Part shown: in pieces, positions 1,838 to 59,809 of the stretch
Layout: every line of letters starts with the position of its first letter
How positions within the stretch are numbered: position 1 is the first letter of the stretch
Source: an uncultured Opitutia bacterium
GTDB taxonomy: Bacteria; Verrucomicrobiota; Verrucomicrobiia; Opitutales; Opitutaceae
Direction: 5' to 3'
NCBI GenBank assembly: GCA_903827245.1
Contig: CAIKHO010000048.1
Location: forward strand, 62,001-126,000
Length of the DNA stretch: 64,000 bases
The notes under the pieces: model-generated
Database searches by the model: none
Seen by the model: the letters and a program-made list of their open reading frames with translations, nothing else
Told to the model about the DNA's origin: nothing
Program-made: the position numbers and the translations under genes

Positions 1838-1964
1838 GGGTGGCCGCCGACCTCCGGGCGGCGGCCGTTTGATTCTGCACAGAAAAAAACACCGACGCAG
1901 ACCAAGACCGCCGCCCGGTCCGTCCGGCACAGGCTTGGCGAAGCCAGAAGGTCGGCGGCCACCC
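1838..1964. repeat. Dispersed inverted repeat (GGTGGCCGCC family), copy 1
   Basis: About 127 bp. The left arm begins GGGTGGCCGCCGACCTCCGG and the right end reads GAAGGTCGGCGGCCACCC. Between the GC-rich arms is an A-rich core of about 43 nt (1870-1912). The same arms recur at 47991-48121, 52334-52456 and 56358-56483. It fills the gap between the isomerase/epimerase start and the uxaC stop. Confidence 0.8.
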
Positions 1965-1999: not shown

Positions 2000-3421
2000 C
2001 TAGGCTTTGCCCGGCTCCAGGCCGAAGAACCCGGCGGCGTTTTTATAGCAGATGTTTTCGATCAGCTCGCCCACCGTCGCGGCGTCGGCGGGGATCAGGC
2101 CGGCCTCGACGTCGTGGCCGATAAGGTTGCAGAGAATGCGGCGGAAATACTCGTGCCGCACATAGCTGAGGAAGCTGCGCGAGTCCGTCAGCATGCCGAC
2201 GAAGCGCGAGAGCAGGCCGAGCTGCGAGAGCGCGTTCATCTGCCACTCCATCGCCTCCTTCTGGTCGAGGAACCACCAGCCGGAGCCGAACTGCAGCTTC
2301 CCCGCGATCGAGCCGTCGCCGAAGTTGCCGCACATCGTGGCGAAGACGTAGTTGTCCGCCGGGTTGACGTTGTAGATCACGATCCGCGGCAGCTGGTTTT
2401 CCGCGTCGAGTGTGCCGAGGTAGCGCGAGAGCGAGCGCGCCTGCGGGAAGTCGCCGATGGAATCGACGCCGGCGTCCGCACCCAGCAGCTTGAGCAGCCG
2501 GCTGTTGTTGTTCCGGATGGCCCCGAGATGCAGCTGCTTCGTCCAGCCGCGCGCCGCATCCAGCCGGCCGAACGCGAGCATCATGAAGGAGGCGAATTTC
2601 GCCCACTGCTCCGGCGTCGCCGCCCGCCCGCCGCGCGCCTGTGTAAAGATCGCCGCGGCCTCGGTCTCGGTGCAGTCCTCCGCCGGCACGTATTCCATGC
2701 CGTGATCCGACACCCGGCCGCCCAGGGAATGGAAGAAATCATGGCGCTGTTTCAACGCCTCGAGGAATGTCGTGAAATTCTTCACCTCGATGCCCGACCG
2801 CGCGCCGAGCTGGCTGCACCAGGCGTTGAAGGTCGCGGGGTCGTTCACCAGCAGCGCCTTGTCCGGCCGGAAGGTCGGGTAGACCCGCGTGCCAAGGCCG
2901 CTCTTCGCGATCGCCACGTGGTGCGCGAGGTCGTCCGCGGGGTCGTCGGTCGTGCAGACGACACGGACCTTGAATTTCTTCAGGATACCATGGACCGACA
3001 GCTCGGGCTTCGCGAGGGCGGCGTTGGCCTGCTCCCAGATCTTCGGCGCGTTGGCCTCGTTGATGAGCAGGTCGATGCCGAAATAGCGGCGCAACTCGAG
3101 GTGCGACCAGTGATGCAACGGATTCCGCACCAGCTGGGGCACGGTCCGGGCGTAGACCAGGAATTTCTCGTAATCCGTGGCGTCGCCGGTGATCAGCCGC
3201 TCCGGCACGCCCGCCGCCCGCAGCGCGCGCCACTTGTAGTGGTCGCCGCCGAGCCAGATCTTCGCGAGGTTCTCGAACTGCCGGTTGGCCGCGATCTCGT
3301 TCGGCGGCAGGTGGCAGTGATAGTCGAAGATGGGCTGCGGCGCCGCGTGGTCGAAGTAAAGCCGGCGGGCCCAGGCGTTGGTCAGGAGATAATTCTCCGG
3401 GAGAAAGGTTTGTTCGGACAT
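2000..3421 (-). CDS. uxaC: Glucuronate isomerase (uronate isomerase)
   Basis: A 473-residue, full-length UxaC, a member of the amidohydrolase superfamily. It isomerises D-glucuronate to D-fructuronate and D-galacturonate to D-tagaturonate in the cytosol, the first step of hexuronate catabolism. The N-terminal metal motif FDYHCHLPP, the segment HHWSHLELRRYFGI and the C-terminal region LTDSRSFLSYVRHEYFRR are characteristic. The start MSEQTFLPENYLL matches the usual family start. The bases just upstream are pyrimidine-rich (AAACCTCCCTC before ATG), with no Shine-Dalgarno sequence. The UxaA-like gene at 49575 could serve a later step of the same pathway. Confidence 0.95.
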   Translation of the reverse strand: MSEQTFLPENYLLTNAWARRLYFDHAAPQPIFDYHCHLPPNEIAANRQFENLAKIWLGGDHYKWRALRAAGVPERLITGDATDYEKFLVYARTVPQLVRNPLHHWSHLELRRYFGIDLLINEANAPKIWEQANAALAKPELSVHGILKKFKVRVVCTTDDPADDLAHHVAIAKSGLGTRVYPTFRPDKALLVNDPATFNAWCSQLGARSGIEVKNFTTFLEALKQRHDFFHSLGGRVSDHGMEYVPAEDCTETEAAAIFTQARGGRAATPEQWAKFASFMMLAFGRLDAARGWTKQLHLGAIRNNNSRLLKLLGADAGVDSIGDFPQARSLSRYLGTLDAENQLPRIVIYNVNPADNYVFATMCGNFGDGSIAGKLQFGSGWWFLDQKEAMEWQMNALSQLGLLSRFVGMLTDSRSFLSYVRHEYFRRILCNLIGHDVEAGLIPADAATVGELIENICYKNAAGFFGLEPGKA

Positions 3422-6155: not shown

Positions 6156-6310
6156 GATCCCGTCCAGTGTGGGGTGAAGCTTCACCCGCGCGCAACGGAT
6201 TTCCTCCGCACCAACCGTCACGGCAACTCAGCCAGCCCGTTTCCCGGGCGATACAGGTGCAGCGCAGGACACGCCTTGCGGGCAGCCGACACACTCCTGA
6301 TCCAATCTGA

Positions 6311-6386
6311 TTTTACAGGAGGAAGACCGAGGGCAAACGAAGATTGGGACCGATCTTGGTTCGTCCTCGGTCTTCCTCCTGTAAAA
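6311..6386. repeat. 22-bp perfect inverted repeat between argF and argG
   Basis: Left arm 6311-6332 (begins TTTTACAGGAGGAAGACCGA) and right arm 6365-6386 are exact reverse complements with a 32-nt loop. Partial pairing continues into the loop. The arm ends in TTTTA, so the folded RNA would end in a U-run when read in either direction. It may serve as an argF 3' terminator as well as being a repeat. Confidence 0.75.
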
Positions 6387-6470
6387 TTCCTTGGGTTTGC
6401 CGCATGCGCAAGGGACTCTGCGGTGCCCGGGATCTTTTTGCGTTATTTGAGCCTTTTCGTGGCCCAAAAA

Positions 6471-7418
6471 TCACTTCCGCGCCGATTTCGCCAGCATGGC
6501 CATGATCGCCTTCTGCATGTGCAGGCGGTTCTCGGCCTCGTCGAAGATCACGCAGCGGGGGTTGTCGAGCACGGCCTGCTCGACCTCCTCGCCGGGGTGG
6601 GCCGGCAGGCAGTGCATGAAGAGCGCGTCCGGCTTGGCGGCGGCGAACAGCTTCGCGGTCACGGCGTAGGGCTGCATCTGTGCGAGGCGTTTCTTCGACT
6701 CTTCTTCCTGGCCCATGCTGGTCCAGACATCCGTGTAGACCAAGTCCGCGCCGGCGACAGCCTCATAGGGGTCCGTCGTGAAGTGATAATCCGCCTTCAG
6801 GCCGTCGGCCTTGAGCTGCGCCTGGATCTCGGCGCCGGGCTCGAAGCCTTTCGGGCCCGCGAGCGAGATCTTCATGCCGAAGAGCGCCGCCCCGAGGATC
6901 CACGAGTTCGCCATGTTGAAGCACGTGTCTCCGAGATAGGCGATCTTGCGGCCCTTCAGCGCCGCCACGAGGTCGCCGCCGGGCGCGGCCCAGCGTTCCG
7001 CCGCGGTGAAGGCGTCGGTGTAGATCTGGCAGGGGTGCAGGAAATCCGTCAGGGCGTTGATCACTGGCATGGTGCTCGCCGCGGCCAGGCGCGTGACGTC
7101 CGCGTGGTCGTAGGTCCGCACGACCAGGCCGTGCACGAAACGCGAGAGCACCTTCGCGGTGTCCTCGATCGACTCGCCGCGGCCGAGCTGGATGTCATTC
7201 CGGTTGAGGAAAAGCACATGGCCGCCGAGCTCGTGGATGCCGACCTCGAACGACACGCGCGTGCGGGTGCTCGATTTCGAGAAGATCATGGCCCACGTCT
7301 GCCCCGCCAGCACGCCCGTCCGGGGCTGCCCGCGGGTGCGCTTGTACTCCCGGGCGAGCGCGAACACCTCGCCCAATTCCGGTGCGTGGAAGTCGGTCTC
7401 CTTGAGGAAGTGTTTCAT
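6471..7418 (-). CDS. argF: Ornithine carbamoyltransferase
   Basis: A 315-residue enzyme making citrulline from ornithine and carbamoyl phosphate. The start MKHFLKETDF is chosen because homology begins there; the frame is open further upstream. The carbamoyl-phosphate motif SSTRTR lies at residues 49-54, DFLHPCQIY follows mid-protein, and the catalytic Cys motif FMHCLPAHPGEEV lies near the C-terminus. Length fits the family. The leader before the ATG is TTTTCCTTTCC, with no Shine-Dalgarno sequence. It sits between argD and argG. Confidence 0.95.
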   Translation of the reverse strand: MKHFLKETDFHAPELGEVFALAREYKRTRGQPRTGVLAGQTWAMIFSKSSTRTRVSFEVGIHELGGHVLFLNRNDIQLGRGESIEDTAKVLSRFVHGLVVRTYDHADVTRLAAASTMPVINALTDFLHPCQIYTDAFTAAERWAAPGGDLVAALKGRKIAYLGDTCFNMANSWILGAALFGMKISLAGPKGFEPGAEIQAQLKADGLKADYHFTTDPYEAVAGADLVYTDVWTSMGQEEESKKRLAQMQPYAVTAKLFAAAKPDALFMHCLPAHPGEEVEQAVLDNPRCVIFDEAENRLHMQKAIMAMLAKSARK

Positions 7419-19010: not shown

Positions 19011-19069
19011 ATGGAACGCCGGTCCGCGCGCATTTTGCACCAAGGGCCCGCCCCGGCAGACGGAATGCC

Positions 19070-19158
19070 GGGACTGGCAAGATTTGCAGGGCGGGGTGTT
19101 TGCCACCTCCGCGACTCTACCCCCGTAAAGCCGCCGCCCTGCAAATCATGTCAGTCCC
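19070..19158. repeat. CTGGCAAGATTTGCAGGGCGG inverted repeat
   Basis: Left arm 19070-19094 (GGGACTGGCAAGATTTGCAG onward) and right arm 19134-19158 pair with three mismatches. It lies in the 396-bp gap (19011-19406) between cca and the sigma factor gene. The rest of that gap holds a second inverted repeat, ATCTTTCAAAA (19287-19297) and TTTTGAAAGAT (19355-19365), about 40 bp before the sigma start. No gene is seen in this gap. Confidence 0.65.
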
Positions 19159-19406
19159 GCCGTTGGCGCGTCGCCCGAAAATCGTCCTTCCTGCACCATA
19201 AATCCGTTTCGCAATCCTCCGTTTCCCGCCGGAACATCAAGAATCAGATGAGTCGCTACTGATATAAAACGGATGGCGGCCAAGGGATCTTTCAAAAGAA
19301 TATCCGTCTACGCCCATCACCGCCCAATTCGGTGGCTTGCACGATTTCGCATTTTTTTGAAAGATTTGGGCCGTTGAGTCCGTTTCAACAGGTAAACGCG
19401 CCCATC

Positions 19407-47990: not shown

Positions 47991-48121
47991 AAGGTGGCCG
48001 CCGACCTCCGGGCGGCGGCTGGACTCTGTCGGCGGAAGCGGCGAGCGAAGTCAGGATTCGTCGCGTAGGAATTGAACCGTCCCTTTCAAACCACCGCCGA
48101 CCTCCAGGCGGCGGCCACCTT
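47991..48121. repeat. Dispersed inverted repeat (GGTGGCCGCC family), copy 2
   Basis: Begins AAGGTGGCCGCCGACCTCCG and ends CCAGGCGGCGGCCACCTT, between mdh and the next minus-strand gene. The interior differs from the other copies and includes a second, inverted GACCTCC block. Confidence 0.75.
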
Positions 48122-49574: not shown

Positions 49575-52328
49575 ATGTTTGCCATGCCCTCCGTCCCGCT
49601 TGATTTCACCTCTGCCGGCCGTTTGCCGGCGCCGGACGACAACGTTGCCATCGCCATTCGCCGGCTCGAAGCCGGAATGGCGTTGCTGATTGACGGTGTC
49701 GTACGGACGCTCGCGTATACCGTGCTGGAGGGGCATCGCTTTGCGGTACGACCCATCGCGACCGGTGAGGCCCTGCTCTCGTGGGGGCTGCCGTTCGGCG
49801 TGGCCACGACCGATATCGCCGCCGGCGACTATGTATGCAACCAGTCGACCCTCGAGACCCTCGCCATCCGCCGTACCGGCGCGAGCCTGCCTGCCCAACC
49901 GAATTTTGCCGACCGCCTCGTGCCCTTCCAGCTGGATGAAGCTGCGTTCCGACCCGCGTCCGCGACCGAGCGCGTGGCCGCACCGCGGACTTTTTCCGGC
50001 TACCGCCGGCCCGGCCGGCGCGGCATCGGCACGCGCAACTTCATTGTCATTCTCGGCACGACGTCGCGCACCGCGAGCTACGCCCGCCAGCTCGCCGCCC
50101 GGCTGCAGCCTCTCGCCCGCGTCCATCCTGGCATCGACGGCATCGTGGCCATCGCCCACACCGAGGGTGACGGCCCGGGGCAGCCCAACAACGCCGCCGA
50201 GATCCTGCGCTCGCTCGCCGGTTTTATCGTCCATCCCAACGTCGGAGCCGTTCTGGCGGTCGATTACGGCGTCGAGCCGGTGAACAACGCCCGGCTCCAC
50301 GATTTCATGCGCACGCGCGGCGATCCGCTCGATGACGTGCCGCACCAGTTTCTCACCTTGCACGGCGGACTCGCGGCCGGGCTCGCCGAGGGTGAACGCA
50401 TCGTGCGCGGCTGGCTGCCGTCCGTGAATGCGCTGCGCCGCACGGACGAGCCCGTCAGCGGCCTCCGCATCGCGCTGCAATGCGGCGGGTCCGACGCGTT
50501 CTCGGGGATTTCCGGCAATCCCCTCGTCGGCGCCGCCGTCCACGAGGTCGTGCGTCACGGCGGGTCCGCCAATCTCTGCGAAACCGACGAACTGGTCGGC
50601 GCCGAGGCTTACGTGCTGTCCCGGGTGAAGGATCTTCCGACCGCGCGCGCGGTGCTCGCCAAGATCGAGGGCTTCAAACAGCGCCTGGGCTGGCACGGCG
50701 TCACGCCCGAGAGCAACCCCTCCGGCGGGAACAAGCTGCGCGGCCTGTACAACATCGTGCTCAAGTCCCTCGGCGCCGCGCACAAAAAGGATCCGCGCAC
50801 CCGCATCGATCGCGTAATCGAGTACGCCGAGCCGATGACCGAGCCCGGCTTCTATTTCATGAACAGCCCGGGCAACGATCTCGAGGGTATCGCCGGCCAG
50901 ATCGGTGCCGGCTGCAATCTCCTGCTCTTCGTCACCGGCAATGGCTCGATCACGAACTTTCCATTCGTCCCGACCCTCAAGGTCACCACCACCACGCGGC
51001 GGCACGAACTGCTCATCCACGAGATGGACATCAACGCCGGCCGCTACCTCGACGGCGAGGCAATGGAATCGCTTATCGCCGAGACCTTCGACCTGTTGCT
51101 CGCCACGGCCTCCGGCAAGAGAACCAAGGGCGAACACGCCGGCCACTCCCAGGTCTCGCTCTGGCGCAACTGGCGGCAGACTGATACCTCGCAGCTGGAA
51201 GGCCTGCGCGCCCGGGTCGCGCCGGATGGTCTGCCGCTCGAGGTAGGGCGAGTCTCCGACCCGCCCTCTCCGCCTTCTAAGGGCGGGACACAGACCCGCC
51301 CTGCTTCAACCCCGGTCAACCTGCAGCGCACCGAATATGGCTGGGCCACGGAACGCATCGGCCTCGTGCTCCCCACCAGCCTTTGCGCCGCCCAGATCGC
51401 ACGGCTCGCCGCCGAGCGGCTGAACCAGAAGGGACTCGGCCGCGCGCAGGGGATCTCGCGCTTTGTCGGGCTCACCCACACCGAGGGCTGCGGTTTTGGC
51501 GGCGAGTCCATGCACAAGCTGCTTCACCGGACCTACCGCGGCTACGTCACGCATCCCAACGTCGTCGCCGCCCTCCTGCTCGAGCACGGCTGCGAAAAGG
51601 TGCCCAACGACATGATGCGCCACCAGCTGGAGCTCGCCGGCGTGTCGCTCGATCGCTTCGGCTGGGCCAGCGTGCAGCTCGATGGCGGCATCGAAAAGGC
51701 GCTGGGCCGGGTCGAGGCTTGGTTTGCTGAAAAATTCGCCGCCTTGCCGCCGCCCTTTACCGCGGCCACCGATCTTGGGGCGCTTTCACTCGGTCTCCTC
51801 ACGGCTGCGCCCGTCAGCCTCCCGACCGCCGCTGCCCTCGCCGCGGTGGTCCGTGAAACCGTCGCCGCCGGCGGTTCCATTCTGCTGCCGGAAAGCGATC
51901 CGCTGCTGGCGAACAGCTCCTTCCGGTCCGCCGTGCTCGGCACCACGCCGCCCCATGCCACGCTCGCCTACGGCCAGCCGCTGGTCCGGCCCGGCCTGCA
52001 TGTCGTCGCAACCGAGTCCGACCACTGGGTGGAAAACCTGACCGGCCTCGGTGGCTGCGGGGCACACCTTTTTCTCACCGTCGTCAGCGAAAATTCACGT
52101 CAGGGTCATCCGATGCTCCCGGTCATCCAGGTCGCCGAGGCCGGCCAGCGCGGGACGCTGCCGGCGGACGACATCGATGCGTTTCTTTCCGGGGATGCCT
52201 CCGCGGACGCGAATGTGTTGAAGCAACTCATCGTGGCCGTGGCCCAGAACGAGCTCACCCCCGCCGTCACGGCGCAGGGTTTCACCGATTTCCAGCTGAC
52301 GCGCGGCCTGCTCGGCGTTTCGACGTGA
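49575..52328 (+). CDS. Double-length altronate dehydratase-like (UxaA family) protein
   Basis: 917 residues, against about 495 for E. coli UxaA, which dehydrates altronate. Residues 1-540 align along a whole UxaA: SAF domain (1-110), GIGTRNFIVILGTTSRTASY, QCGGSDAFSGISGNPLVGAA, NPSGGNKLRGLYN and MNSPGNDLEGIAGQIGAGCN. The central motif HTYGC is HTEGD here (195-199), and the next Cys motif (GLGCENN) is DYGVEPV. Residues 585-917 repeat the central and C-terminal domains and do have the cysteines (HTEGCGFGGES at 635, LLEHGCEKVPND, GLGGCGAH). A linker of about 23 residues at 556 is encoded by a palindromic repeat. Related galactarate or other sugar-acid dehydratases are possible. Confidence 0.82.
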   Translation: MFAMPSVPLDFTSAGRLPAPDDNVAIAIRRLEAGMALLIDGVVRTLAYTVLEGHRFAVRPIATGEALLSWGLPFGVATTDIAAGDYVCNQSTLETLAIRRTGASLPAQPNFADRLVPFQLDEAAFRPASATERVAAPRTFSGYRRPGRRGIGTRNFIVILGTTSRTASYARQLAARLQPLARVHPGIDGIVAIAHTEGDGPGQPNNAAEILRSLAGFIVHPNVGAVLAVDYGVEPVNNARLHDFMRTRGDPLDDVPHQFLTLHGGLAAGLAEGERIVRGWLPSVNALRRTDEPVSGLRIALQCGGSDAFSGISGNPLVGAAVHEVVRHGGSANLCETDELVGAEAYVLSRVKDLPTARAVLAKIEGFKQRLGWHGVTPESNPSGGNKLRGLYNIVLKSLGAAHKKDPRTRIDRVIEYAEPMTEPGFYFMNSPGNDLEGIAGQIGAGCNLLLFVTGNGSITNFPFVPTLKVTTTTRRHELLIHEMDINAGRYLDGEAMESLIAETFDLLLATASGKRTKGEHAGHSQVSLWRNWRQTDTSQLEGLRARVAPDGLPLEVGRVSDPPSPPSKGGTQTRPASTPVNLQRTEYGWATERIGLVLPTSLCAAQIARLAAERLNQKGLGRAQGISRFVGLTHTEGCGFGGESMHKLLHRTYRGYVTHPNVVAALLLEHGCEKVPNDMMRHQLELAGVSLDRFGWASVQLDGGIEKALGRVEAWFAEKFAALPPPFTAATDLGALSLGLLTAAPVSLPTAAALAAVVRETVAAGGSILLPESDPLLANSSFRSAVLGTTPPHATLAYGQPLVRPGLHVVATESDHWVENLTGLGGCGAHLFLTVVSENSRQGHPMLPVIQVAEAGQRGTLPADDIDAFLSGDASADANVLKQLIVAVAQNELTPAVTAQGFTDFQLTRGLLGVST
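51240..51304. repeat. Palindromic repeat in frame inside the UxaA-like gene
   Basis: The segment contains AGGGCGAGTCTCCGACCCGC and AGGGCGGGACACAGACCCGC arms and starts GTAGGGCG, like the intergenic palindrome at 63228. It keeps the frame open and encodes a Pro/Ser/Gly-rich stretch (EVGRVSDPPSPPSKGGTQTR) that falls exactly between the two UxaA-like halves. Confidence 0.65.
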
Positions 52329-52333
52329 ACGAC

Positions 52334-52456
52334 AAGGTGGCCGCCGACCTCCGGGCGGCGGAATAACCTCCGTCCACGAAAAACGTCTGCTCAAATCCAA
52401 ACCGCCGCCCGGCCTGTCCTCCGAAGTCTTGGCGATGGATGAAGGTCGGCGGCCAC
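52334..52456. repeat. Dispersed inverted repeat (GGTGGCCGCC family), copy 3
   Basis: Left arm AAGGTGGCCGCCGACCTCCG and onward, a 40-nt core at 52362-52401 (begins AATAACCTCCGTCC), then a right arm ending GAAGGTCGGCGGCCAC. The core is the reverse complement of the core in the copy at 56358, while the arms are in the same order. Confidence 0.85.
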
Positions 52457-52500
52457 GATGATCCAGCTTCAGCTTAACGCGAATATAGCGCTCGTGCCCG

Positions 52501-54396
52501 TCAGGCCGGCGCCTTCGCCATCGGGCCGCGCATCGGCGGCGTGGCCACCGTCGGACCCTGGAAGCTCCGCCACTTTTCCAGCGGCAGGTTGGCGAGGCCG
52601 ATGATCACGAGCTGGCTGGCGACAAACGCCACCAGCCACCAGAAGGCGGCGTCCATGAAACCGTAGCTGTGGAGGCCGACGCCCAGCATGTTGACGCCAA
52701 ACCAGCTCCAGCTCGTCACCACGTTGCCGAAAACGGCCAGGCACATCAGTCCGCGCTGCTTCACCAGGCCGCCCCAACGGGCGTGCAGGATGATCGCGTT
52801 CCAGATCACGATGATCAGCGCGCCGTTTTCCTTCGGATCCCAGCCCCAGAAACGGCCCCACGACTGGTCGGCCCAGATGCCGCCGAGCACGGTGCCCACC
52901 AGGCTGAACAGCGTCGCGAAGCACACGATCCCGTAGACCATGCGGGCCAGCGAATCGGCCGTGGCCTTGTCGAGCGACCGCGTAAAAACTCCGCGGAAAA
53001 TGTAGATGAGGGCGAGAAACCCCGAGAGGAAGGTCGCCGCATAACCCGTCGCCACCACCACGACGTGTGTCGCCAGCCAGAAATTGGAATCGAGGACGGC
53101 GCGCATCATCTCCAGCGTATCACCGCTGAACGAGAGGTAGTGCGCGATCAGCAGGGTGCTGAAACCGACCAGCCCCGCCGCCACGCTGCCGATGGCGTTC
53201 TTGAAGATGGTCTCGAGCACGAGGCAGAGCGCCACGGCGCCCCAGCCGACAAAGAGGGCCGAGGAATACAGGTTGGTGACGGGCGGACGCCCCTCGAGCC
53301 ACATGCGCGTGACAATGCCGGCCGTGGCCAGCAGCCACGCGAGTGCCACCACGTAAAACGCCGACCGACCGAGCACCTCCGGCCATTTCAGCCACGAGAA
53401 CAACGCGAGCAGGAAGGCCCCGATATAGACCAGCATGCTGGTCCAGAACGGATCCGCCGAGTTAAAGCGCACCTCGACGTCGCATTTCACGAGCTGCGGC
53501 GCAAAGCGCTTCTGCAGCGCGTCACGGTACAGCGCGACCAACTCGTTGAACTGCGCCGGCTGGTGCTGGCGCCAGGTGCGGGCAAACGCCGCATAGGTCA
53601 GGACCGAGGGATTGATCCGGCCGGACGCAAAGGTCTCGAGCAGCGCGCTGCCCGGCTTGCTCCACGCCGTCGGATCCTTGGCCCCGGCCTCCGGCGGAAT
53701 CGCCAGCAGATAGCCGTAATTTTCCAATTGCATGAACTTCTCCCCGATGGCGGTGACCTGGTTGGCGGCCGCCTCGTCAAACGGCTGCCCGGCCTGCTTG
53801 GCCCGCATGGCCGCGACGCCGGCGGGCAGCGCCTTCTGGAAACTCATCAGCTCGGCGAGGAAATCCTCCGAGTCCGGCGGCACGAGGCTGTGCTGGAGCC
53901 GCTGGTAGAGGACGAGGCTGTTGTAGAGCTGGATGACCGCCTTCTGGAACGACGAGCGCACTGCGGACTCCACCGGCTCGGCCAGCTTGTACTGGCGTTC
54001 GAGCTCGGTGAGATTTTTTTCCAGCTGCACGAAAGAAAAGCGCTTTTTTCCCGCGCCGTCCTCGGGCTTGAGACTGAACAGCGCCAGCACGTCCGGGTGG
54101 ACGATCTCGAAGGTCTGGTAGGCGTCGGCCACCGTGCCGCTGAACATCACGTCCAGCAGCCACTCCTCCGGCGTGAGCTCGCTGCCATTCGGCGCGGTCA
54201 CCGACCAGCGGCCCTGGAATTGCAGCAGGGAGGTGCGCGCCACGGTGTCGAAGGGCTTGATCCGGCCGTTGACGAGCACGGGCAGCCGGCCGAAGCCGGT
54301 GACATCGAATTCAGCCGGATTGTGCGGCGGCACCAGCGAGACGCCGACCAGGGCCAGCGTGGCGAGCAGGACGAGCCAGGGGATCGTTTTTTTCAT
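52501..54396 (-). CDS. ccsA: Cytochrome c biogenesis protein CcsA
   Basis: A 631-residue membrane protein of system II cytochrome c maturation, which carries and attaches haem. The C-terminal half is polytopic and contains the tryptophan-rich haem motif WADQSWGRFWGWDPKENGAL and flanking His residues (LIAHYLSF, ATHVVVVATGYAA, NAIILHARW). The N-terminal 320 residues form a large extracytoplasmic domain after one signal/anchor segment. This enlarged CcsA is a form seen in Bacteroidota and Verrucomicrobia. It overlaps resB by 4 bp. Confidence 0.9.
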   Translation of the reverse strand: MKKTIPWLVLLATLALVGVSLVPPHNPAEFDVTGFGRLPVLVNGRIKPFDTVARTSLLQFQGRWSVTAPNGSELTPEEWLLDVMFSGTVADAYQTFEIVHPDVLALFSLKPEDGAGKKRFSFVQLEKNLTELERQYKLAEPVESAVRSSFQKAVIQLYNSLVLYQRLQHSLVPPDSEDFLAELMSFQKALPAGVAAMRAKQAGQPFDEAAANQVTAIGEKFMQLENYGYLLAIPPEAGAKDPTAWSKPGSALLETFASGRINPSVLTYAAFARTWRQHQPAQFNELVALYRDALQKRFAPQLVKCDVEVRFNSADPFWTSMLVYIGAFLLALFSWLKWPEVLGRSAFYVVALAWLLATAGIVTRMWLEGRPPVTNLYSSALFVGWGAVALCLVLETIFKNAIGSVAAGLVGFSTLLIAHYLSFSGDTLEMMRAVLDSNFWLATHVVVVATGYAATFLSGFLALIYIFRGVFTRSLDKATADSLARMVYGIVCFATLFSLVGTVLGGIWADQSWGRFWGWDPKENGALIIVIWNAIILHARWGGLVKQRGLMCLAVFGNVVTSWSWFGVNMLGVGLHSYGFMDAAFWWLVAFVASQLVIIGLANLPLEKWRSFQGPTVATPPMRGPMAKAPA

Positions 54397-55565
54397 GGGG
54401 CGGCGGGGACAGCGGACAGACGGCGTTTCCGGAAGAACCCGGTGAGCGAAATGGAGAACTGGACGATCAAGCCCACGGCCATCAGCACGCAGGAGACGTA
54501 GGGCAGCAGCCAGCTCGGGTTGCGCACGACCTGAAGGATGGTGACCTTGTCATTTCCCTCCTCGAAACTCGCCTGGTAGAACGTGAGGCCTGAGTAGCGC
54601 AGGGGGTTGTTCATGTAGATGAGCACCTCGCGGTCGTCCCGGCCGTCGGGCGTGGTCAGATGGATGCGGCTCGAGAAATTCTTCGGGATGTCCGTGCCCG
54701 CGTAGATGTCGTGATTGAACTTGAGCAGCGTGAGCGCAAACGGGCGATAAGCCCGCGCCGGGCGCAGGGCCATTTTCCACGTATGGCCGCCCACGGCGAA
54801 AGTCTGCTGCAGCACCGGAATCGGCGCCACCAGCCGGGTGCCGAGCGAGCCCTCCGGTCCCACCAGCTCGACGTAAACCGCGGGCAGGTTGGTCTCGTCG
54901 GGCTTGTAGGTCATGGGCAGCGGGGTGGCGTCGATCTGCATGCCGGGACCGATGGTCGCAAGCGACGGCGGCTGGCCGGCCGCATCGGTGCGATTTTGCA
55001 GGCCGGCGTTGGGATAGTAGGCCTTGGGGACCACCCGGAAGGGGAGCTTGGGATGCTGTACCACCTCGCCGCGCTCCAGCAGCTCCGTGGGAATGACCAC
55101 CACGTCGTCGTGGTCCGCGCTGGTCGTGTCCGTGATCGCGAGCTCCATGAATCGTGAGCTCTCGGAGTAATTCTTGGGCTGGCCCTCCTCCAGGCGCATC
55201 TGGAATTCCTGCTGCCAGAGGCCGGCGAAGAGCTGGCCGAGGAGCAGGAGGATCAGGCCCAGGTGGGTGAGAAAGATGCCGGTCTTGCGCCACGTCAGCT
55301 TGAAGCGATAGACGTGCGCGGCGACGAGGTTGACGAAGAGCAGGCCGCCGAGGAAATAACCGCCGGGAAAGATCGGCACCGGCACCTCGCCGACTTTCCA
55401 GAGCACGAAGAAGGTCTGGAAATACTTCTGCTGCACCGCCCAGATGCCGAGGTTCACCTGGTCGATCGTCGCGGCGAAGATGAGGAGCATCGACAGCGCC
55501 AGCAGCACGACCGTCAGCCGGAGCGAAACGAAGAAATCGCGAAACTGCCGCGTCAGGTCGTTCAT
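54393..55565 (-). CDS. resB: ResB-like cytochrome c biogenesis protein
   Basis: A 390-residue ResB/Ccs1-type partner of CcsA. Three N-terminal membrane segments are visible (LRLTVVLLALSMLLIFAATI, FPGGYFLGGLLFVNLVAAHV, IFLTHLGLILLLLGQLFAGL). A large periplasmic domain follows, with the typical segment YMNNPLRYSGLTFYQASFEE, and a last membrane segment near the C-terminus. It is translationally coupled on both sides (4-bp overlaps with the lipoprotein gene and ccsA). Together they export and ligate haem. Confidence 0.9.
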   Translation of the reverse strand: MNDLTRQFRDFFVSLRLTVVLLALSMLLIFAATIDQVNLGIWAVQQKYFQTFFVLWKVGEVPVPIFPGGYFLGGLLFVNLVAAHVYRFKLTWRKTGIFLTHLGLILLLLGQLFAGLWQQEFQMRLEEGQPKNYSESSRFMELAITDTTSADHDDVVVIPTELLERGEVVQHPKLPFRVVPKAYYPNAGLQNRTDAAGQPPSLATIGPGMQIDATPLPMTYKPDETNLPAVYVELVGPEGSLGTRLVAPIPVLQQTFAVGGHTWKMALRPARAYRPFALTLLKFNHDIYAGTDIPKNFSSRIHLTTPDGRDDREVLIYMNNPLRYSGLTFYQASFEEGNDKVTILQVVRNPSWLLPYVSCVLMAVGLIVQFSISLTGFFRKRRLSAVPAAP

Positions 55566-56221
55566 GGCCGGGCCGGGGGTCTGATCGTCTTGAGGAATTC
55601 CTCGAACGAGGGCTTGCCGCCGGCAATCACGGCATCGGGTCCGGGTCCGAGTTTAAAAAACCAAGTACCCGTGTCGAAGGGGATGATCGCGCCGATCAAA
55701 CGCTGCGATGGTCCGCCAAAATCCACCAGGGCAATGCGCAGCCCGTTGGATTCAAGGCGCGTGACCGCCCCCGCGAGGTCCGCCGCGGTGAGCGGCGGCA
55801 GATCCACCTGTCCGCGCCAGCGGTTGACGTTGGCCAATTCGCCGCCGACATCGCTCGGGAATGCCGTGATCGAGAGTTCCCCTTCCGCCCCTCCGGCGCC
55901 TGGCACACTGTACGTTGCCTTGCGCATGGCCGACCCGGCCTTCGACTTCCAGTTTGCCGGCGCAGTCCAGGTCAGCTCGGGGCCGCTTGCCGTGGGCACG
56001 GCCGTCGCCGCCATGGCCGCGCCACCGGCAAAGGGCGCCACCGCCCCGGGCGTTGCATCGGCCGCGGCCGGCATCTGCGGGATCACCGCGTCCTTTTCCT
56101 TCGGCACCTGATAATAAGCCACCTTCGGGTCACGGCACGCGGCGAGGCACAGGGGCAGCAAGAGGAGCACAAGACAGACGGGACGGGGAAACATGAGGGA
56201 GGCCCACAGTCTATCCTTCAT
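55562..56221 (-). CDS. Putative lipoprotein of the cytochrome maturation operon
   Basis: 219 residues, or 210 from MFPRPVCLVL (start 56194). The lipobox LPLCLAAC gives an acylated Cys. The mature part has an Ala/Pro-rich linker and a domain with TWTAPANWKSKAGSAMRKAT and LIGAIIPFDTGTWFFKLGPG. The latter pattern is common in small lipoproteins that precede ccsA/resB in this phylum. It is first of three genes overlapping by 4 bp. A role in cytochrome maturation is inferred from position only. Confidence 0.7.
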   Translation of the reverse strand: MKDRLWASLMFPRPVCLVLLLLPLCLAACRDPKVAYYQVPKEKDAVIPQMPAAADATPGAVAPFAGGAAMAATAVPTASGPELTWTAPANWKSKAGSAMRKATYSVPGAGGAEGELSITAFPSDVGGELANVNRWRGQVDLPPLTAADLAGAVTRLESNGLRIALVDFGGPSQRLIGAIIPFDTGTWFFKLGPGPDAVIAGGKPSFEEFLKTIRPPARP

Positions 56222-56302
56222 CGGGAAACTTCAACCCAATCCACCGGCAAAAACCCGAGGCCCGCGCATATTAGGGCTGATGACAGGGTTTAGAACGATC
56301 GC

Positions 56303-56329
56303 GTAGGGGCGTTGCTTGACGACGCCCGG
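56303..56329. repeat. GTAGGGGCG repeat, half copy
   Basis: GTAGGGGCGTTGCTTGACGA and onward matches, in reverse complement, the right arm of the copy at 3491-3558. The opposite arm is missing, and another repeat type starts directly after it. Confidence 0.65.
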
Positions 56330-56332
56330 ACT

Positions 56333-56356
56333 GTAGGAGCGGCTTTACGCCGCGAT
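56333..56356. repeat. GTAGGAGC-GCTTTACGCC repeat, copy 1
   Basis: GTAGGAGCGGCTTTACGCCG followed by CGAT recurs with one change at 59810-59833. The pattern resembles one arm of REP-type elements. It adjoins two other repeat families in a cluster of about 180 bp. Confidence 0.65.
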
Positions 56357-56357
56357 C

Positions 56358-56483
56358 AAGGTGGCTGCCGACCTCCGGGCGGCGGTTTGGATTTGAGCAA
56401 ACGCTATTGGTTGACGGAGATTATTCCGCCGCCCGGCCTGTCCTTCGGAGGCTCGGCGAAGGAGGAAGGTCGGCGGCCACCTT
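56358..56483. repeat. Dispersed inverted repeat (GGTGGCCGCC family), copy 4
   Basis: Left arm AAGGTGGCTGCCGACCTCCG, a 40-nt core at 56386-56425 (begins TTTGGATTTGAGCAAACG), and a right arm ending GGTCGGCGGCCACCTT. The core is inverted relative to the copy at 52334. It ends 12 bp past the GH78 stop codon, so it also sits at that gene's 3' end. Confidence 0.85.
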
Positions 56484-56494
56484 TTCGGAACTTT

Positions 56495-59400
56495 CTACCT
56501 GATCGCCTGGCGCGGAAACGAGAACCGGTACGCACCCGCCGCAAGAGCCAGCGTCGTGCTGTTTCCATCCGCGCCGGCCACCGCTTGTCCGTCCTGACGC
56601 ACGTCCCGAGCGGAAACGGGCAGCACGATGTCGGCCGTAGTGTTCGGCGGCACGGTCACGTCGTAGATCATCTGGTCGTTCTCCACATGCCAATGGGAAC
56701 CGATGACACCGTAGGGCGTGTCGAGCGTCGCCTTCACGCGCGAGAGCCGCTTCGTGAATTGCGGCGCGAGCGTGAAGTGCTTGTAGCCGGGCTGCGCCTC
56801 GTCGGCCTGGATTCCGGCCGCGCCGGAGTAGAGCCACGCGCCGACGGAGCCAAGCGAGTAATGATTGAAGGAGTTCATCGACGAGGCCTGGAATCCCTTT
56901 TCCGGCGTCCAGCCATCCCAGCGCTCCCAGATGGTGGTGGCCCCATTTCTCACGGAGAAAAGCCAGGAGGGGTAGCTGTCGGTGAACACCAGCTGCCAGG
57001 CGAGATCGGAGCGGCCGATTTCCGTGAGCATGGGGCAGATCAGCCCGACCCCAACAAAACCCGTGGTGAGATGGCCGCTTTGCTCGACATCCTCCGCCAG
57101 GCGCCGGGCCACGATGGGACGCAGGTTTTCCGGGAGCAGGTCGAATTTCAGTGCGAGCATGTACGCCGTCTGGGTATTGCCCGAGCGTACCTCGGGGCCC
57201 GCATTCGCGGCCGGTGCAGCGCCCGCGCGTCCGCCCCGCGCGCCACCGACCGCGGTGATCGAACCATCGGCCCCCACATACGCGGCGTTGAAGGCGGCCA
57301 CGATATCCTGGCGCAGCTTGTCATATTTCGCGGCGTCCTCCGTCTTGCCAAGAATCGACGCGGCCCGCGCGACGATGCGCACGGACTTGGCAAAAAACGC
57401 CGTGTCCACGATGTTCGTGGGCGTGGGCTTCGGAGCGAGATGGTCGCCGACCCCGCCCGTGAGAATCAGGTTGTTGGACGAGCGCTGGCAGTAATCCACC
57501 CATTTCGCCATGTGGTCGTAGTTGTCCGCCAGAAACGCCTTGTCGCCGTAGGCCACGTACATGACCCACGGGATGATGACACCCGCGTCACCCCACACGG
57601 GCCACGAGTTGTTCTGGTTCGCCCGCGGCGAGACCGTCGAGAACTCGCCGTTCGGTCCCTGGGCATCGTTCACGTCCACCATCCACTTGGTGAAGAAGCC
57701 CGCGACATCCGCATTGCGCACGGCGGTGGGCGCGAACACCTGCGCGTCACCCATCCAGCCGAGGCGTTCGTCGCGCTGCGGGCAGTCGGTGGGCACGCTC
57801 AGGAAATTGCTGCGCTGGCCCCAGGTGATGTTCGAGAAAAGCTGGTTGAGATCCTTGTCCGAACTTTCCCAGGTTCCCGTCGCCGGCGTGTCGGAGCCCA
57901 CGACGATACCGCGGATGTCAGCGGCGGTGAGTTCGCCGGGATAGCCCGCGATCTCGACATAGCGGAAACCGTGGAACGTGAAGTGCGGCTCGAAGGTTTC
58001 GCGGCCCGCGCCGCCAAGCGTGAAGGTATCGATGGAAAGGGCCGTCCGGAGATTTTCCGCATAGAGCGTGCCGTCGGCGTTGATCATCTCCGCGTGGGTG
58101 GCCGTGATGGTGGTGCCGGCCGGTCCGCGGGCGGAAAGGCGGACGTGGCCGACCATGTTCTGGCCCAGGTCGACGATCCAGACATTGCCGCGCCGCGTGA
58201 TGGCTTTCGGGGCCAGCTCCATCAGCCGGCGCACCGGCGGCCCGCGCTGCGGATCGAGCGCGATGCCCTCATGGGTTTCGAGTGCGACGGGCGTCCACCC
58301 GGCATCGTCGAACGCCGGGCGGTCCCACGGAACCGTTTTGCGCCCGTCGATGACTTCGCCCAGCTGCGCATCGGCGCCGACGATCTCGCCCGCGCCACCC
58401 TTCCAGGAGCCGTCCGTCGCGATGATCTCGGTGGAGCCGTCGGCATAAAATATTTCCAGCTGCGCGCTGAAAAGCGGCCGGCTGCTGACCTTGGCGTATT
58501 GGGCCAGCCCCATCCAGCCCAGGCGGCCCGCAAACCAGCCGTCGCTCAAGAGCGCCCCGACCGCGTTCGGACCGGGCGTGAGCAGCGCGGTGACATCGAC
58601 CGTCTGCACCATCACTCGCCGGTTGTAATCGGTGAAGCCGGGGTCGAGCTGGTGGTCGTTGACGCGCTGGCCGTTGATCGAGGCCTCGTAGACGCCGAGC
58701 GCCGTCGCATAGAGGCGCGCCTTGGCCACCGGGCCCCTGACGGTGAAAGTTTTCCGCAGGTAGCGGCCGGGCCCGATCATGCCACCTGCGTTGTCCGCCA
58801 GATCCTGCGCGTGATAACCACCGAGCACACTGGCCGCAGGCCAGGCCGAATCATCGAAGGCCGTCTCAAACCACCCGGTCGCCGGCGCCACCGCGGCCTT
58901 CCAGGCGCCGTCCGTGTTGAAGGTGATGTGCCGGCCACCCTCGAGTTCGATGTCGCCATGGGCCGCCAGGGCGTTCCGTCCGCCGCCCCGGGAAAGGCGC
59001 ACAGCGGCCGCGCCGATCCCAATGATATTTTTGCCGGCGACCAGCTGGCCGCCAAAGTCCGCATGGAACGGCGCCGTGTGGCTGGTGCTGCCCTGCAGCG
59101 TGGGCTGGCCGTTGACATAAAGGGCGATCAATCCGTCGGCCGCCGCATCGATCGTCGCGCCGAGCACCTTCGCGCCGGCCGGAAGCTCAAGCACCAGCCG
59201 GGCGGCCGCCGCCTGATTGGAAATGGAGCCCGCCGAAATCCACGAGGCGCCGCCCAGCGCCGGCTGCATAATGTCATAGCGCGGCAAATCCGCGGTGATC
59301 CACAGGCCCTTCCATTCCCTGGCCGGCGCGAGCAAGCCGAGTTCAAACGACGCCGGCTCGCTCCACGCGGAAGGCGCTCCGTCCTTGTCCCACACCCGCA

Positions 59401-59740
59401 CCTGCCAGAAAACCTGCGACCGCGACCCAAGCGCCGGCCCACCCCACGGCACCAGCACCGATTCGGCGGAGGCCACTTTGCCGGAATCCCAGAGCCCCGG
59501 CGGGTTGGTCACCAAGCCTGCCGCAGTCGCCGCAGCGCGAATTTGATAGGCAGTCTGCACCTCGCCATTGCGGCCAGAGACCAGCTTCCACGAAAGCCGC
59601 GGCTGCACAACGCCAAGCCCAATCGGATTCCGCTCATGCTCGGTGGTGAGCCCCGCGAGGCGCACCGGTGAAACAGTTTGGGCATTTAGCGGACCGGTCA
59701 GGGAAAACGCAGCCAGCAGAAACAAGAGTCGGGTAATCAT
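56495..59740 (-). CDS. GH78-family alpha-L-rhamnosidase, secreted
   Basis: A 1081-residue glycoside hydrolase releasing terminal L-rhamnose from polysaccharides or glycosides. The signal peptide is MITRLLFLLAAFSLTGPLNA. The N-terminal fibronectin-like and carbohydrate-binding beta domains are followed by the (alpha/alpha)6 barrel. The barrel carries the GH78 signature SVPTDCPQRDERLGWMGDAQ with the catalytic acid region, WPVWGDAGVIIPWVMYVAYG, and the late TTIWERWDGWTPEKGFQASS. The C-terminal beta domain includes YGVIGSHWHVENDQMIYDVT. The ATG at 59740 is preferred for the signal peptide. Substrate probably plant or algal rhamnosides. Confidence 0.93.
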   Translation of the reverse strand: MITRLLFLLAAFSLTGPLNAQTVSPVRLAGLTTEHERNPIGLGVVQPRLSWKLVSGRNGEVQTAYQIRAAATAAGLVTNPPGLWDSGKVASAESVLVPWGGPALGSRSQVFWQVRVWDKDGAPSAWSEPASFELGLLAPAREWKGLWITADLPRYDIMQPALGGASWISAGSISNQAAAARLVLELPAGAKVLGATIDAAADGLIALYVNGQPTLQGSTSHTAPFHADFGGQLVAGKNIIGIGAAAVRLSRGGGRNALAAHGDIELEGGRHITFNTDGAWKAAVAPATGWFETAFDDSAWPAASVLGGYHAQDLADNAGGMIGPGRYLRKTFTVRGPVAKARLYATALGVYEASINGQRVNDHQLDPGFTDYNRRVMVQTVDVTALLTPGPNAVGALLSDGWFAGRLGWMGLAQYAKVSSRPLFSAQLEIFYADGSTEIIATDGSWKGGAGEIVGADAQLGEVIDGRKTVPWDRPAFDDAGWTPVALETHEGIALDPQRGPPVRRLMELAPKAITRRGNVWIVDLGQNMVGHVRLSARGPAGTTITATHAEMINADGTLYAENLRTALSIDTFTLGGAGRETFEPHFTFHGFRYVEIAGYPGELTAADIRGIVVGSDTPATGTWESSDKDLNQLFSNITWGQRSNFLSVPTDCPQRDERLGWMGDAQVFAPTAVRNADVAGFFTKWMVDVNDAQGPNGEFSTVSPRANQNNSWPVWGDAGVIIPWVMYVAYGDKAFLADNYDHMAKWVDYCQRSSNNLILTGGVGDHLAPKPTPTNIVDTAFFAKSVRIVARAASILGKTEDAAKYDKLRQDIVAAFNAAYVGADGSITAVGGARGGRAGAAPAANAGPEVRSGNTQTAYMLALKFDLLPENLRPIVARRLAEDVEQSGHLTTGFVGVGLICPMLTEIGRSDLAWQLVFTDSYPSWLFSVRNGATTIWERWDGWTPEKGFQASSMNSFNHYSLGSVGAWLYSGAAGIQADEAQPGYKHFTLAPQFTKRLSRVKATLDTPYGVIGSHWHVENDQMIYDVTVPPNTTADIVLPVSARDVRQDGQAVAGADGNSTTLALAAGAYRFSFPRQAIR

Positions 59741-59809
59741 GGGGTATCCTGACGGAATTCTAGGCAGACTCACACGGAACAGAAAAGAGTGAAGTCACGG
59801 GGCATCTTT

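Follow-up and report, generated by a model that had tools for sequence, protein, structure and literature searches.

Sister REP doublets with oppositely directed cores in an Opitutia genome: loop inserts that can lie in either arm and signs of occasional core inversion

In a 64,000-nucleotide stretch of the draft genome of an uncultured Opitutia bacterium (GenBank assembly GCA_903827245.1, contig CAIKHO010000048.1, positions 62,001 to 126,000; hereafter the window), two short repeats, which we call elements A and B, carry closely similar arms in the same order around cores that point in opposite directions. Both are doublets of repetitive extragenic palindromic (REP) sequences, that is, miniature elements of the REPIN type, and judged by their cores they appear to be sister copies 4 kb apart. 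A first-pass annotation of the window had taken the opposed cores as the possible trace of a flip between palindromic arms; the observation is confirmed and its interpretation is partly supported. From the sequence comparisons we favor, with a probability of about 0.6, the reading that A and B are sister doublets with a hairpin loop insert in opposite arms, for which no inversion of the core is needed. Elsewhere in the same repeat family, the comparisons suggest that cores have been inverted now and then.

The two elements share 27 of 28 left-arm positions and 49 of 55 right-arm positions. Their cores agree at 34 of 40 positions once that of B is reverse-complemented (85%, slightly more than the 80% or so of the first-pass annotation, whose coordinates for arms and cores were right); when both are read on the same strand they agree at 10 of 40, or 13 at best if any shift is allowed. 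BLAST applied to the cores likewise gives 85% over 40 nt. The next-best 40-mer of the window, on either strand, reaches 23, and none of 200,000 shuffled cores reached 34, their maximum being 25, which refutes chance as the source of the similarity itself. That the match is an artefact of assembly, as might be suspected in a draft of 91 contigs, is also highly improbable, since A and B lie inside contig C48 with genes on both sides and the same core occurs at two further places in the genome. These were found with a covariance model of the A/B-type core (core C) and its inner arms, which gave four strong copies in the host genome (G000; 3.55 Mb, 97% complete) at 79-89 bits, with the next match at 31.7: A, B, C74:141829-141890 and C74:212099-212160. 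A and B are the closest pair, and each of them agrees with both C74 copies at 22-28 of the 40 positions. Among the other 56 genomes of a 57-genome set no match reached the strong level (best 32.2 bits, in the sister genome G001), the search being one whose stricter filters lose weak matches.

Two other leads on relatives of this core were dropped. The exact core pattern occurs in 20 stretches of a contig collection, whose titles name unrelated taxa except for one called only "bacterium"; by these titles we read them as chance, records of the host genome itself or of very near genomes possibly lying outside the scan. The core of a window doublet at 1839-1963, suggested by the listing of repeats, proved unrelated in alignments set against shuffles. 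The element as a whole is indeed a dispersed repeat, as had been claimed: with E values up to 10, the host genome contains 108 pieces that match A, a figure in which some places are counted twice, on both strands, and the weakest pieces are at chance level. When the window and the retrieved loci were scanned with a loose motif, the matches paired into 47 candidate doublets, five of which were chance or duplicate matches by eye.

Each element consists of two GTGG-tagged REP hairpins that face each other across a short core (table 1). In the short arm, the letters GGTGG stand directly before a stem of 6+2 pairs, in keeping with the GTRG tag of a REP. Folded as single strands, both elements are more stable than all 200 of their shuffles (z -6.1 for A and -7.5 for B), which bears out the earlier description of the arms as palindromic. 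By itself, the left REP of A folds at -10.1 kcal/mol (z -2.4; 6 of 200 shuffles equally good) and the right REP no better than its shuffles (z -1.1; 26 of 200 equally good). The stem was also assessed for covariation in 10 different arm types chosen by hand, of which G001 contributed one and this genome the other nine. Paired letters occupy 98.8% of its cells, compared with 30-54% in slid controls and with no such value in 500 shuffles, a percentage that is inflated because the hand-picking left out some arms with mismatches or wobbles, such as the left arm of B. Both sides have changed in five of the eight pairs (29 of 500 shuffles do as well), and there are 18 double-change cells as against 6.6 in shuffles, none of 500 reaching 18. 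The hairpin structure together with the double changes in the stem therefore identifies A and B each as a REP, a spacer and an inverted REP within a single hairpin, the arrangement known as a REPIN or head-head dimer.

Such a structure makes direction difficult to assign. Because its two REPs are near-identical inverted repeats, a doublet is almost without intrinsic direction; in A and B the only clear asymmetry of the arms is a 30-nt insert in the hairpin loop of the right REP, and the direction given to the two elements thus rests on that insert. The first-pass annotation had used the shared order of the arms as a fixed reference; the arms do agree, but in related elements the insert that marks them is found in either arm. 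The clearest case is a sister group of doublets, subfamily B, whose two stems are unlike, with CCGCC next to ATGGAA-type core ends and stems of the CCGCG or CCGTG type opposite. Judged by these stems the cores are unturned, and loop inserts (30 or ~69 nt) occupy the left REP in five copies and the right REP in five. They lie in the CCGCC arm at C56:42652, C58:10251, C73:48367, C79:65599 (where another repeat replaces much of the core) and C88:44, and in the other arm at C1:69511, C11:6899, C22:78185, C25:868 and C46:7047. This 5:5 count omits C13:4, which repeats C88:44, as well as C73:30978 and C30:126052, whose right-arm inserts are of another kind; C22:111202, with class-B-like letters beside the other arm type, was placed neither in this count nor among the flips.

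In a second group, subfamily A, six inserts lie in the arm toward the GCCACA end of the core (C5:11265, C7:12738, C9:8511, C21:84663, C30:150902 and, by eye, C70:19432) and two on the ATTCC side (C7:87139 and C74:79803), a count in which the C21 and C74 copies have no usable flank and from which the 4-nt insert of C86:94101 is left out. Of the two other copies of core C, the third (C74:141744) carries an insert in each arm, and in the fourth (C74:212080) one arm holds an insert of only 4 nt. By eye, the third (locus L048, C74:141744-141971) is a hairpin inside a hairpin, its 30-nt loop insert appearing to hold some 36 nt in a loop of its own. The inserts of A and B agree at 24 of 30 positions, and the insert of C22:111202 also agrees with each of them at 24 of 30; being no closer to each other than to this third sequence, the A and B inserts need not have been inherited with the core.

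Since inserts occur in either arm of the other subfamilies, an orientation deduced from the insert is unsafe and the A/B pair does not require a flip. We suppose that REPs acquire inserts of this kind, lose them or copy them from one another whatever the core does, and that the inserts can land in either arm; the copying may be by gene conversion or by template switching between the hairpins. Most likely, the insert of A would then lie in the arm that adjoins the ...CAAATCCAAA core end and that of B in the opposite arm, so that the two elements would simply obey the same rule as the sister subfamilies. That two copies should bear the insert on opposite sides without any inversion is, under such a rule, not unlikely.

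Several points weigh against this account. The identity of the A and B inserts (80%) is near that of the cores (85%), as a single inherited insert followed by a core flip would give, and the value of 24/30 ties for the highest in both of their matrix rows. The evidence that inserts fall on either side comes mostly from subfamily B, because the sides in subfamily A are uneven (6:2). Moreover, a core flip may have occurred in the A/B pair as well, given that 2 of 20 copies in subfamily A are reversed.

These two copies are the principal argument for the chief alternative, in which one of the two elements had its core inverted in situ between the perfect 11-nt inner arms, which form part of the longer REP arms, with no dedicated enzyme, by template switching on the hairpin during replication or by recombination on a cruciform. 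Subfamily A provides a reference that is external to the doublet: it forms part of a longer element with conserved, unlike outer flanks, F1 and F2. Their outer ends are inverted repeats of each other, and flanks were scored by their inner parts, the outer ends being alike. Of the copies, 21 reach a core score of 40 or more; the flanks place 14 of these in the canonical direction and two in the reverse, and five have no usable flank. Another four copies, truncated ones in which F1 adjoins the ATTCC end, are also canonical (C21:8269, C27:45124, C56:109800 and C72:46360), which brings the flank-orientable copies to 20, 18 of them canonical. Four canonical calls were made on F1 alone (C7:87139, C23:7054, C74:232750 and C88:38893), with scores of 32-46 to be compared with a threshold of 30 and with F1 values up to 38 in random control windows, which were probably drawn from real F1 loci.

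In the first reversed copy, C72:1-130, F1 lies beyond the arm expected to face F2 (64 vs 32 alignment points for the flank), and the core agrees with the canonical one at 22 of 24 positions when reversed and at 3 of 24 when not. In the second, C23:11525-11620, F2 lies beyond the arm expected to face F1 (52 vs 14 points), with core agreements of 20 and 6 of 24, respectively. Two more candidates for flips, C75:10337 and C23:824, were dropped, one having only 4 nt of core and the other no complete arm. In subfamily B, whose arms are less complementary, the 21 copies listed have the usual direction by eye (C13 and C22:111202 left out). Inversion of hairpin loops is also known elsewhere: by template switching in rRNA (PMC8794818) and as flip-flop loops in plastids (PMC6824564).

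The flank identities are clear, but each reversed copy has just one readable flank, C72:1-130 being at a contig start and the far arm of the C23 copy being degenerate. An inversion in place and an exchange between two different elements through their arms are therefore both possible sources, and in the A/B pair the sole direction marker can land on either side. For that pair we consider inversion in place possible but unlikely, and we retain the independent movement of the inserts as the better explanation. Thus, the turning of a core between its arms, as first proposed, is suggested by the flanks of two subfamily-A copies and is not required by the two elements for which it was proposed.

A broader proposal would be that the REPIN spacers of this lineage are flip-flop loops, turned at an appreciable rate when replication crosses a long perfect REP hairpin, so that both orientations would be found at the same loci. 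The rate would depend on the symmetry of the arms, turning occurring where they are identical (subfamily A and perhaps A/B) and not where they are unlike (subfamily B). We offer this tentatively and regard it as doubtful. Any such turning would probably be neutral, because the stem of the hairpin is the same for either direction of the core, an argument made for the plastid cases in the part of that study considered here (PMC6824564).

The longer element around subfamily A is some 180 bp in length, with inverted-repeat ends (ATACCAACGTCC...GGACGTTGGTAT) and the REP doublet inside, as at loci L139 (C9), L133 (C56), L136 (C5) and others. In two copies, L145 (C65:17286-17414) and L273 (C35:41105-41215), the core and most of the arms are gone and a single palindrome or stump remains; these stumps are deletions on the hairpin. 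A search for subfamily A in 252 genomes of the family, with at most three candidates scored per genome, gave at E up to 1e-8 only G000 and G001 among the matches listed; the second sister genome, G002, has one weak match (1.3e-5). The conserved outer flanks are absent, by eye, from the G001 copies. Some G001 copies with a TGTTGCGCG core have arms that differ by one letter and are swapped; we rejected these as too weak, conversion of one stem pair being sufficient to produce them.

The sister genomes also bear on a rearrangement of quite another scale, inversion of the 4 kb of chromosome between A and B through their arms, which are homologous and close together. In G002 the rhamnosidase gene, an unnamed gene, resB, ccsA and the dehydratase gene keep their order and strands, and A and B are both absent. 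A single 4-kb inversion is thus excluded as the cause; several nested inversions would be needed, and we regard this explanation as largely refuted and extremely unlikely. Gene order around the two sites is conserved in G002; in G001 it is conserved around site A, and the contig stops short of site B. Both sites in G002 hold another REP doublet (TGTAGGAGCGGC...), and site A in G001 holds a third kind of repeat. Because the sister sites contain other REP-like repeats, there is no orthologous element to compare, and the sites that could be read hold no shared copy. The same gaps appear to be reused by different REP families. In locus L111 of G002, the same GTAGGAGCGGC REP doublet stands at 3050-3350 and 7040-7240, the sites of A and B. 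The alpha-L-rhamnosidase next to B (window 56495-59773) is 95% identical to its G002 homologue over 1029 residues, and its four neighbors are 63-83% identical, which suggests that the gene was recently transferred or replaced between the two lineages.

Table 1. Repeat features of the window, with positions counted from its first nucleotide
Feature	Position	Strand	Remarks
Third window doublet	1839..1963	+	30-nt-type loop insert in right arm
Window repeat with the same left REP and another core	47993..48119	+	
Element A, REP doublet (REPIN-like), 123 nt	52334..52456	+	Similarity, folding, gene context
Left REP of element A, 26 nt	52336..52361	+	GTGG tag and own hairpin; inner arm 52351-52361
Core of element A, 40 nt	52362..52401	+	34/40 vs reverse complement of core B
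Right REP of element A	52402..52456	-	30-nt insert in hairpin loop at 52413-52442
Half of a different REP doublet (TGTAGGAGCGGCTTTACGCCGCGAT), abutting element B	56332..56356	+	G002 has the whole doublet at site B
Element B, REP doublet (REPIN-like), 126 nt	56358..56483	+	Similarity, folding, gene context
Left REP of element B	56360..56385	+	Left arms A/B 27/28
Core of element B, 40 nt	56386..56425	+	Reversed relative to A with the arms as reference
Right REP of element B	56426..56483	-	30-nt insert in hairpin loop at 56437-56466

Both elements are intergenic. A sits in the gap where an altronate/galactarate dehydratase-family gene and a cytochrome c assembly gene converge; B is bounded on one side by the end of the alpha-L-rhamnosidase gene and on the other by the start of the gene upstream of resB. 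This setting offers little to the idea of a programmed DNA switch (an inverton), in which a site-specific recombinase would turn the core, and which the two orientations of a short segment flanked by inverted repeats might bring to mind. No recombinase family was found with Pfam in the five adjacent genes, one of which (55565-56221) matches no family at all; the only serine recombinase match in the genome (PF00239) is on contig C84, with none nearby, in a search that did not extend to tyrosine recombinases. Neither A nor B contains a promoter-like site, the only one in 52250-56700 being at 55677-55650, outside both, and the convergent gene ends around A likewise count against a switch. An element whose core can switch, the second possibility of the first-pass annotation, is thus most improbable here in the sense of a programmed switch. 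The four terminator-like matches in the region are not above chance (3.4 expected), and of the elements only the left REP of B contains one. At a distance from A and B, the window has two other long near-perfect inverted repeats, at 6310-6387 and 19064-19164, with 38-nt arms that are 89% and 82% complementary.

Spacer flipping, if confirmed, would make template switching or cruciform processing at REP hairpins visible by its traces, and the process could be followed among paralogues within one genome. Among known systems, the closest in anatomy are the REPINs, REP doublets that form hairpins (Bertels and Rainey 2011, PMC3116915). In the passages of that paper considered here, REPINs too have inverted REPs around a less conserved spacer, form one long hairpin as a whole and show compensatory changes (PMC3116915). 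The present elements differ in that their REP loops carry hairpin inserts of 30 to ~69 nt and in that, judged against markers, some spacers are found in either direction. They differ also in the apparent want of a transposase: in the G000 draft no match to the RAYT-type domain Y1_Tnp (PF01797) passes an E threshold of 0.001, and of the 57 genomes searched 43 have such a match, both same-genus genomes included. The gene was possibly lost from G000 or lies in a gap of the draft, and the genome apparently harbors a REP population without its transposase.

The GTAG-tagged REPs are similar in their tag, stem length and dimers. According to the portions of PMC3733652 consulted, their stems are mostly 6-9 bp, they form head-head homo- and heterodimers, and most copies of the GTAG-20 family of Opitutus terrae read GTGG. 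The occurrence of GTGG-type REPs in that species would fit a tentative placing of the host near Opitutus. A and B share the GTGG tag, a similar stem length and the head-head arrangement, GTAG-20 being compared by its description only. The ~180-bp element with its inner doublet likewise resembles the REP dimers described within longer palindromic sequences in A. variabilis (PMC3733652). Those portions of PMC3733652 make no mention of spacer inversion in GTAG-tagged dimers. At the level of titles and abstract starts we found no turned spacers in the literature on REPs, REPINs and bacterial interspersed mosaic elements (BIMEs), which was covered beyond that level by passages of PMC3116915, PMC3733652 and PMC2817692.

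Invertons, including phase-variable invertible promoters, resemble the present case in that a segment between inverted repeats is seen in two orientations; the difference is that here no recombinase was found nearby, the cores hold no promoter-like site and nothing points to both states at one locus. A nearer likeness is to the small inversions of plastid genomes (PMC6824564) and to loop inversion by template switching in rRNA, bacterial examples of which are included in the sections of PMC8794818 that we used. As these sources describe them, a short loop is turned between intact stem arms and no dedicated enzyme is needed. In those cases orthologous loci were compared between species, whereas here the comparison is among paralogous copies, and the loops of 4-24 bp in the plastid study, as far as its text was drawn upon, correspond to cores of 24-40 nt in the repeats of this genome.

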